Assembly (NCBI GenBank): GCA_015056585.1
Contig: SVFZ01000089.1
Coordinates: forward strand, 1 to 64,000
DNA: 64,000 nt
Reading direction: 5' to 3'
From: Butyrivibrio sp.
GTDB taxonomy: Bacteria; Bacillota; Clostridia; Lachnospirales; Lachnospiraceae
Shown: positions 24,526 to 26,574 of the stretch, in pieces
Numbering within the stretch: position 1 is the stretch's first letter
How the letters are laid out: every line of letters begins with the position of its first letter
Translations under genes and position numbers: made by a program
Notes under the pieces: generated by a model
Told to the model about the DNA's origin: nothing
Seen by the model: the letters and a program-made list of their open reading frames with translations, nothing else
The model's database searches: none

Positions 24526-25191
24526 ATGCAGTATTGTCCTAAGTGTAAGATAAACATCAGAGGAGAAAAGTATTGCTGTCCTCTGTGTCAGGGTAAGATA
24601 AAAGAGGTGGATGATAATATCAATGATCCTTTCCCTACTTTGCCCAAAAAAAAGATCAGTAACATAACCTTCTTTAAAGTGGTTACTTTTATATTTATCG
24701 CGCTGGAGATCGTATTTGAAACAGTGAATTTCCAGACAGACGGCAGATACCCCTTTGTGGGCATCACAATGCTTGGCCTGCTTGTGGCATGGATCACGAT
24801 CCTTACAACGATGTATCTTAGAAACAACCTCATAAAGGTCATAACCTGGGAGGTTGTGGTGGCTATTTTGGTAGATATTTACATTGATCAAAAAACCGGG
24901 TTTTATGGCTGGAGCGTTATGTGGATGATTCCGTCAACGCTCATAGCGCTTGCAGCAGCAACGATCATCACTGCAAAGATAATGAAGCTTCGCCTGGATG
25001 AGTATATTTTATATCTGATCCTCGATCTTGTGATGGCTCTTTTGCAGATCATATTTATTGTAAACGGAATGAATAAATTTACCTGGCCTGCAGTGATAAG
25101 TATCATGGTTTATCTTATCATGCTGGTGGCACTTTTCATCTTCAGATTCAGAGATCTCAAGAATGCTTCTGAGAAGGTTTTCAACATGTAA
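24526..25191 (+). CDS. Zinc-ribbon multi-helix membrane protein (DUF6320-like)
   Basis: 221 residues starting with a zinc ribbon, YCPKCKINIRGEKYCCPLCQG (paired CxxC motifs at 4-7 and 17-20). About six membrane helices follow, and the protein ends in a short basic tail. In Lachnospiraceae this layout, beside an alcohol-acetyltransferase-like gene, is annotated as DUF6320; the label is from memory of that context. It lies 5 nt after the acyltransferase gene. A membrane platform for an acyltransferase is a reasonable guess. Its TAA stop is the first part of the outer stem of the structured element at 25189-25350. Confidence 0.75.
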   Translation: MQYCPKCKINIRGEKYCCPLCQGKIKEVDDNINDPFPTLPKKKISNITFFKVVTFIFIALEIVFETVNFQTDGRYPFVGITMLGLLVAWITILTTMYLRNNLIKVITWEVVVAILVDIYIDQKTGFYGWSVMWMIPSTLIALAAATIITAKIMKLRLDEYILYLILDLVMALLQIIFIVNGMNKFTWPAVISIMVYLIMLVALFIFRFRDLKNASEKVFNM

Positions 25192-25350
25192 CGATATAAG
25201 ATAGCAAGCTTACCATCCGTGCATGCTTGCATGCGAAGGATGGTAAATTTGCTATCTGAACGAACATAAGGAAGTAGCACTTTTGTGCGGATTCCGCATG
25301 TTCGCAGGATTGCGAGAGTTGCATGCAACGGAGCAATCCGTATATCGTTA
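25189..25350. repeat. 162-nt three-armed cloverleaf element (structured RNA or small mobile repeat)
   Basis: A perfect 10-bp inverted repeat (TAACGATATA at 25189-25198, TATATCGTTA at 25341-25350) encloses three hairpin arms with almost no unpaired linker. Arm 1 is 25201-25255 (ATAGCAA/TTGCTAT, then TTACCATCC/GGATGGTAA, then GCATG/CATGC). Arm 2 is 25261-25304 (CGAACAT/ATGTTCG around GCAC-TTTT-GTGC and the palindrome GCGGATTCCGC). Arm 3 is 25307-25339 (GGATTGC/GCAATCC around GTTG/CAAC). There is no T-tract, so it is not a simple terminator. It starts in the stop codon of the preceding gene. It could be a non-autonomous mobile repeat, a cis-acting leader for the next gene or an RNA gene; no transposase is nearby. 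Confidence 0.75.
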
Positions 25351-25386
25351 CAAAAATAGTGGGCATAAAACCGGTGGGTATCATAC

Positions 25387-26574
25387 ATGAGCATAAAGAA
25401 TCGACTCAATAAAAACAATTTAAAGCGCGGAGTTGTATTTGCCTCCAAGGTAGGGGACTTCGTTGAAAACAGGATAGGTAAGGCTATAGAAGAAAAAGGC
25501 TACGAAGCAGATATTCTTCCCGATGATCCCGAGAGTATGAAATGGTATAAGGTTCCTATAGAAAAGGGTATGTCAGGTGATGGCTCTGAATATCACATTT
25601 ATGTAAAAAAAGCAGATCCTGACAAGCTCTGCATCTTTTTATCAGGCGGAGGCGTTGCCTACAATGAATATACGGCAGCAAGACCTGTCACCGGAGGTAA
25701 GGTTGCAGCGGGACTTCCGAATTACTACTGGAACAATCTAAGACCCTTTACCCAGATAATGAATATCAACATGGGTATCACTGATATAAGTAGTGACAAA
25801 AATCCTTTCAGGGACTGGAGCTTTGTGGTTGTGACCTATTCCACCGGAGATTTCCATGTGGGCAATAACGACTATCCTTATGTAGGGGAGGATGGGCAGG
25901 AGAGAGTCCTTCACTTTCACGGCTATGTAAATTTCCTTGAGAGCATGAAGGTTTCGAAAGCTCTTTTCCCAAATCCGGTCAAACTTCTTATCGCCGGCAA
26001 TTCAGCCGGTGCATTTGCTGTACCTGCTCTTGCAGGGGAGATAGCAGACGATTACTATCCAAAGACGAAAAATATAACGCTTCTTTCTGACAGCGGTCAG
26101 CTCCTTTATAAGCATTGGAGAAAAACTGCAAAGAATATCTGGAAGACCAAGGCTTCTGTATACGAACCTTTAGTGACAGACAATATTACCCTTGACTGGT
26201 ATAAGAGCCTTTATGGAAAGTACGGGGAAAGATTCAGATATCTGTATTCAAGTTCTATCTACGATTACCTGTTGAGTGCCTATTATAACGACATTATCCG
26301 CAAAAAATACAAGACAGATCAGGAGGTTCAGCAGGACTACTACAGACAGCTTGTTGAGATGGTGGGAGAGTTAAAGGCTTTGACGCCTTCCTTCGGAATA
26401 TTTTTAAATGAGTGGAAAATACCTCTTATAACCATGGGGGGAACGGTGCATACCAGTGTTCGCGAGCCTCATTTTTTACTGTTTACTCAGGATGGAATAA
26501 CCATGGCAAAATGGCTTTTCGATGCCTGCGAAGGAAAGGTCTACGACGTGGGAATGGATCTTTTGAAAAGGTAG
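25387..26574 (+). CDS. Pectinacetylesterase-like alpha/beta hydrolase
   Basis: 395 residues, no signal peptide. It resembles the pectinacetylesterase/Notum family: KLCIFLSGGGVAYNEYTAA (oxyanion region), FVVVTYSTGDFHVGNN (equivalent to the plant Y-C-S-G-D motif), and the nucleophile elbow AGNSAGAFAVPAL with serine in GNSAG. The late histidine is in TMGGTVHTSV. Family members remove O-acetyl or O-acyl groups from polysaccharides or proteins. It lies 37 nt after the cloverleaf element, with only a weak GGTGGG ribosome binding site. Next to an acyltransferase and a xylosidase, an ester-editing role on sugars is plausible; the cytoplasmic location is odd for a pectin esterase. Confidence 0.75.
   Translation: MSIKNRLNKNNLKRGVVFASKVGDFVENRIGKAIEEKGYEADILPDDPESMKWYKVPIEKGMSGDGSEYHIYVKKADPDKLCIFLSGGGVAYNEYTAARPVTGGKVAAGLPNYYWNNLRPFTQIMNINMGITDISSDKNPFRDWSFVVVTYSTGDFHVGNNDYPYVGEDGQERVLHFHGYVNFLESMKVSKALFPNPVKLLIAGNSAGAFAVPALAGEIADDYYPKTKNITLLSDSGQLLYKHWRKTAKNIWKTKASVYEPLVTDNITLDWYKSLYGKYGERFRYLYSSSIYDYLLSAYYNDIIRKKYKTDQEVQQDYYRQLVEMVGELKALTPSFGIFLNEWKIPLITMGGTVHTSVREPHFLLFTQDGITMAKWLFDACEGKVYDVGMDLLKR

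Follow-up and report, generated by a model that had tools for sequence, protein, structure and literature searches.

What is a three-armed cloverleaf doing between two genes of Butyrivibrio, with its first stem running through the stop codon of one of them? In this work, we have analysed a 64,000-nt stretch of the genome of a Butyrivibrio sp. (contig SVFZ01000089.1; this whole stretch is called the window here), in which such a structure separates a DUF6320 gene from an esterase-like gene. The initial annotation of this DNA had offered two answers: a non-autonomous mobile repeat inserted at a gene end, or an undescribed structured RNA controlling the downstream hydrolase. Our results make it probable that the cloverleaf is a mobile repeat of a family of miniature transposable elements (MITEs), kept in place as a transcribed intercistronic structure.

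Structure of the locus

The minimum free energy (MFE) fold of positions 25180-25360 reproduces a cloverleaf at 25187-25352 on the forward strand, consisting of a closing stem and three arms. The fold has an energy of -84.1 kcal/mol, whereas dinucleotide shuffles average -43.0 (sd 4.1; z -10.0), none of them (0/200) being as low, and the complementary strand folds almost equally well (-79.2, z -11.0). The closing stem (5΄ side 25187-25198, 3΄ side 25341-25352) measures 12 bp and not the 10 bp first reported. Arm 1 (25199-25257), 2 nt longer on each side than annotated, is a long hairpin whose TGCTTGCA loop is conserved while its stem sequence varies among copies. Arms 2 and 3 lie exactly where they had been placed: arm 2 (25261-25304) has a stem broken by conserved purine-rich internal loops, and arm 3 (25307-25339) a GGATTGC...GCAATCC stem with a conserved internal loop. 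The upstream gene (24526-25191, forward strand; DUF6320, PF19845) ends inside the closing stem, which contains its TAA stop codon at 25189-25191, as had been noticed. The downstream gene (25387-26574, forward strand) is pectinacetylesterase-like by a weak match to PF03283 (32.5 bits, cut-off 26.6), and its start codon lies 39 nt 3΄ of the cloverleaf on the same strand. Inspection of the sequence 3΄ of the element revealed no T-tract, in agreement with the first reading, so that the hairpin plus T-tract of an intrinsic terminator is missing from this copy.

The cloverleaf belongs to the Clostridiales-1 family

The sole Rfam match in the window, at the gathering threshold and also at E values up to 1, is RF01699 (Clostridiales-1), which covers 25192-25347 on the forward strand and model positions 1-166 of 166 with 106.8 bits (gathering score 48). 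Rfam types this family as Gene; sRNA. The window copy shares sequence and structure over the full model length with the Clostridiales-1 RNA of Weinberg et al. 2010 (PMC2864571), whose table gives it as a probable RNA that is probably not cis-regulatory ('RNA? y, cis-reg n') and names Clostridiales and human gut as its sources. As its family already has a name, the locus does not represent a new RNA, and the label 'undescribed' has to be dropped, since Rfam 15 catalogues the family. The description of Clostridiales-1 in that paper, as far as it bears on the family, carries no mention of mobility, a tail, inverted repeats or stop codons, and mobility of Clostridiales-1 goes unmentioned in the titles and abstract openings of the literature searched. 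As far as these searches reach, the evidence that the family moves, and the orientation preference of its older copies, are new.

A covariance-model search showed that the element is far from single-copy: the genome that carries the window (G000) has 18 RF01699 copies above the cut-off, besides 8 hits that are weaker or partial. Of 79 genomes of the genus, 77 contain a match at E values up to 1e-6 and 76 one that exceeds the cut-off; copy numbers range from 0 to dozens. In a sample of the class, in which the best seven candidates or fewer were scored per genome, at least 13 of 391 genomes have a match; these are scattered, six being of the same genus and seven from seven other genera. Fuller scoring gave 44 matches in G021, 58 in G370, 33 in G010, 34 in G048, 23 in G055, 12 in G045 and 3 in G016, whereas two comparison families in the same set number 0 to 3 (TPP riboswitches) and 0 to 2 (RNase P RNA) per genome. 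The family as a whole thus has the many short copies per genome that characterize a MITE.

Two loci with weak RF01699 hits (L301, G000:C128:34300-34900; L302, G000:C45:2000-2600) hold nearly identical folded elements of ~95 nt with a TGCTTGCA loop, each placed directly after the T-run of a different upstream terminator and followed by the same terminator hairpin. They are possibly a related small RNA gene or element.

Tailed copies bear the marks of transposition

The same or nearly the same copy occurs at different loci in four genomes (G014, G016, G018 and G019), and several of these copies carry a 35-nt tail that ends in an inverted, imperfect copy of the element start. Read from the two ends, the inverted ends are TGATATAGGTGTCAAAAGT and TGATGTAGGTGTCAAAAGT, imperfect 19-nt repeats; such terminal inverted repeats were found in tailed copies only. 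Of the 32 copies classed as tailed at first, 28 have a readable end, and 20 of these are from G021 alone. A direct repeat of 6 or 7 nt flanks 24 of the 28; when the flanks were shuffled 500 times, on average 3.0 of the 28 had one, and never more than 8. The direct repeat may take in the last A of the element, so that the duplication may be 5 to 7 nt long. Four copies counted as tailed (L025, L127, L196 and L208) have no readable tail end and may be tailless.

G021 has undergone a burst, with at least 18 near-identical copies of 155 nt plus tail and two more with an extra insert. In these two (L160 and L161) the insert is hairpin-like, 58 nt long and lies in arm 2; four matches of the fuller scoring are 213 nt long, so this enlarged form has multiplied too. 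Copies 93-98% identical are present in G001, G002 and G077, and the Butyrivibrio fibrisolvens plasmid pNP243 carries the element at six places, the best being 98% identical. When an empty site was sought for one burst copy, the candidates scored turned out to be other copies of the element.

The search for the inverted repeat in G000, G014, G016, G018, G019, G064, G370 and G021 yielded no transposase with these ends. There were no matches to the inverted repeat or to the arm 2 pattern in viral contigs, and none in phage records. Of 14 regions with unpaired ends, two had their open reading frames listed, and at 18 places the ends were read together with the next 230 nt; these readings showed MITE fragments and ordinary genes.

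The window copy has no tail in its 3΄ flank and no direct repeat, the two marks that tailed copies display, and its own mobility is therefore inferred from its family. The proposal of a non-autonomous mobile repeat at a gene end accordingly stands for the family, on account of its many copies, its patchy spread, its filled and unfilled orthologous sites (see below) and its inverted and direct repeats, but this copy itself bears neither a tail nor the target duplication that the initial annotation had named as a check. Among tailless copies, by an earlier classification (104 tailless, 32 tailed), a direct repeat of at least 5 nt flanks 5 of 56 at stop codons (shuffle mean 0.36) and 1 of 46 elsewhere. 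Behind a full copy at two loci (G000:C82:30769-31140 and L137), the 3΄ half of the element is repeated in tandem. Motifs like GTGGGCATCAC are repeated just 3΄ of several copies, in the window at 25370-25386 and in the flanks of L018, L020 and L024; these are similar to the 3΄ terminus of RF01699 and may have been left by older copies.

Tailless copies tend to lie in sense behind stop codons

We fetched 138 copies (18 from the genome of the window, and sets of 60, 20 and 40), drawn from ranked lists and bursts and not at random; removal of duplicates left 136, of which 99 are tailless and 37 tailed. Genes were called as simple open reading frames 80 codons or longer. By these calls, 57 of the 99 tailless copies begin at a same-strand stop codon (-16 to +10 nt) and 6 end at an opposite-strand one, with 3 copies counted in both groups, while the 37 tailed copies include 6 with a sense stop and 2 with an antisense stop. 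When both neighbouring genes are considered, the tailless copies are in sense to both in 55 cases and in antisense in 4 (n = 99), as against 8 (++) and 13 (--) for the tailed ones, a difference with a Fisher p of about 1e-6 if kinship among copies is ignored. By genome, sense stops outnumber antisense stops by 12 to 0 among 17 copies in G000 and by 16 to 2 among 20 in G010; the bias is weaker in G048 (7 to 4 of 20) and absent in the three copies from G045 (0 to 0). Our sample shows that tailless copies are concentrated in sense directly behind stop codons and that tailed copies are not.

Covariation with few G-U pairs

Compensatory changes, for which the initial annotation had asked, are abundant: the stems covary copy by copy, and strongly. 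In 84 copies selected for diversity, the 2092 pair cells of the conserved arms comprise 2014 Watson-Crick, 16 G-U, 12 A-C and 50 other combinations. RNase P RNA of the same genus, taken from 30 of the 77 genomes with a match, gives 2454 Watson-Crick, 282 G-U, 8 A-C and 14 other (n = 2758). The G-U share is thus 0.8% in the element and 10.3% in RNase P RNA, which makes the element a poor fit to an RNA under selection. RNase P RNA served as the control because the TPP riboswitch alignment is too conserved, with few pairs (4 G-U and 4 A-C in 299 cells).

In the conserved arms, 7 of the 12 A-C cells fall in one column pair. In arm 1, 40 of 43 A-C and 26 of 54 G-U cells fall at positions 19-22 from the loop and are for the most part a fixed mismatch, and outer arm 1 without this region has 28 G-U against 3 A-C. 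Among 15 copies from the genome of the window, the 5΄ strand of arm 1 is 30% identical and the loop 82%. The closing stems are matched copy by copy: in tailless copies, pairing with the own partner averages -12.7 kcal/mol and with that of another copy -6.7, and in tailed copies -10.4 and -7.9; neither own-partner average was reached in 2000 permutations.

Two alternatives depend on these counts. According to the first, Clostridiales-1 would be a family of trans-acting noncoding RNAs, each copy being transcribed separately, as its Rfam type implies and the table of Weinberg et al. (PMC2864571) would allow; the strong paired covariation, the conserved loops and the 28 to 3 excess of G-U over A-C in outer arm 1 agree with it. 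We regard it as unlikely, given that the copies behave like insertions, that more than half of the tailless ones begin at a stop codon, and that G-U pairs are so much rarer than in RNase P RNA. According to the second, the fold would act at the DNA level, as a cruciform or as single-stranded hairpins recognized by a recombinase or transposase, or would be maintained by template switching, its RNA form being incidental. Watson-Crick covariation with almost no G-U is what such a fold would leave, as are an arm 1 that diverges among copies of one genome around a conserved loop, and closing stems that reach into the host flanks. Template switching is able to make and repair perfect stems, as described in PMC8794818, and on our analysis it plausibly contributes to the pairing seen here. 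The sense bias of the tailless copies, the G-U excess in outer arm 1, the concentration of conserved-arm A-C cells in one column pair and the U-G pairs of the rplL orthologs (see below) all speak against a purely DNA-level role, to which we give a low probability.

The RNase P RNA of the genome of the window (L297, G000:C34:32300-33200) is 476 nt long, while elsewhere in the genus this RNA measures about 350 nt. Its insert of some 125 nt, which G004 lacks, contains a hairpin with the CATGCTTGCATG loop of the cloverleaf; RF01699 does not match this insert at E values up to 1.

The esterase locus in relatives

Comparison of 14 esterase loci (the window and 13 relatives) showed five with a full element, one with a deleted copy (L139) and eight with none, the last being empty sites of the kind for which the initial annotation had asked. 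In the five (the window, L134, L136, L137 and L138), the full cloverleaf stands directly behind the DUF6320 stop codon, in L137 together with further 3΄ ends in tandem. In L129, at 93% protein identity the closest relative, the element is absent and five bases lie between the two genes. The window copy thus has unfilled orthologous sites, as expected of a MITE, although the exact ancestral site is not alignable base by base. L131, counted as empty, has at the insertion point before the esterase gene a palindrome, TGATGATTATCATCA, which resembles the halves of the closing stem without the arms and, judged by its sequence, is a possible footprint or target of the element.

Arm 1 is wholly different among the window, L134 and L136 despite their shared position, which may reflect either a single ancient insertion lost many times or more than one insertion at this point. 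In three of the six filled loci, the stop codon and the right flank vary together (TAA/TTA in the window, TGA/TCA in L134 and TAG/CTA in L138). These joint changes, together with unrelated first arms at one position, favour a reading in which tailless cloverleaves would arise by a second, strand-specific route, as a DNA fold that homes to stop sites and uses the host flank to restore its closing stem. It is disfavoured by the wider sample, in which the stop codon is fully paired in 5 of the 26 copies that directly follow a host stop, compared with 8.3% of cross-pairs, and in which the 5 of 56 tailless stop copies mentioned above keep a direct repeat, and we hold it to be improbable.

The rplL locus

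The element also lies behind a ribosomal protein gene. L119 was read as lying behind rplL, and of the 60 genomes in which rplL was matched, 30 loci were read, the filled ones being chosen by reading and folding; in 6 of the 30 (G012, G006, G010, G070, G028 and G063) a cloverleaf follows right after the rplL stop codon. In all six, arm 1 ends in a T-rich tract, like the terminators that other genomes have at that place, and the changes between their first-arm stems come in pairs, G012 and G010 having U-G pairs. At this locus the terminator seems to be the element itself or a part of it. This T-rich tract and the position behind stop codons could suggest that the cloverleaf is in general an intrinsic terminator or 3΄-end element of the upstream gene, but with no T-tract in the window copy and the esterase gene beginning 39 nt downstream on the same strand, this is very unlikely for the locus studied here. 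Least probable of all is control of the hydrolase by a cis-regulatory RNA such as a riboswitch, the second half of the original proposal, because most relatives of the esterase locus (eight of 14) lack the element and its copies adjoin unrelated genes such as rplL, even though it sits just upstream of the esterase start codon and recurs in full at five of the 14 loci.

A proposed mobile repeat retained between genes

We propose that the window cloverleaf is a copy, tailless and probably old, of a MITE, a non-autonomous transposable element with the Clostridiales-1 RNA as its body. A DDE-type transposase acting in trans would move the tailed copies, some of which would lose the 35-nt tail, perhaps via deletion between ATCA repeats. 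Selection would then retain those copies that enter a shared transcript in sense, as an intercistronic or 3΄-UTR structure; there they may shield the upstream message, expose it or terminate transcription. The window copy would serve as a structured spacer separating the DUF6320 cistron from that of the esterase.

Other small repeats offer precedents, compared here by description. ERIC affects the stability of the co-transcribed mRNA in a way that depends on its orientation, according to the review by Delihas (PMC2229807), and by analogy the sense bias of the tailless copies argues for a similar action of the cloverleaf. As that review describes them, ERIC/IRU/RU-1 and Correia/NEMIS are likewise small intergenic bacterial MITEs transcribed as stable folds; they are single 5΄-3΄ stem loops, most of them with TA ends, whereas the present family has three arms, other ends and direct repeats of ~6 nt. 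The bcr1-bcr18 repeats, as described in PMC3446304, are also interspersed, often in UTRs or between operon genes, with bcr1-bcr3 MITE-like, but belong to another host group, the Bacillus cereus group. QMITE2 of Coxiella burnetii, in the description of PMC5896051, measures 150-190 bp, has direct repeats, resides mainly in 3΄ untranslated regions and was first noticed via an sRNA; it differs in holding a GTAG REP that is hit by IS1111.

What does this mean for the family? What is catalogued as a bacterial 'sRNA' family looks to be a transposable element's body, which implies that RNA discovery based on covariation can be misled by mobile palindromes, and the scarcity of G-U pairs offers a simple test for other orphan Rfam families. 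The family also provides a natural experiment, with a young, unbiased tailed form on one side and, on the other, a sense-biased tailless form fixed behind stop codons, that of rplL included. This contrast makes the co-option of bacterial MITEs as 3΄-end structures testable.
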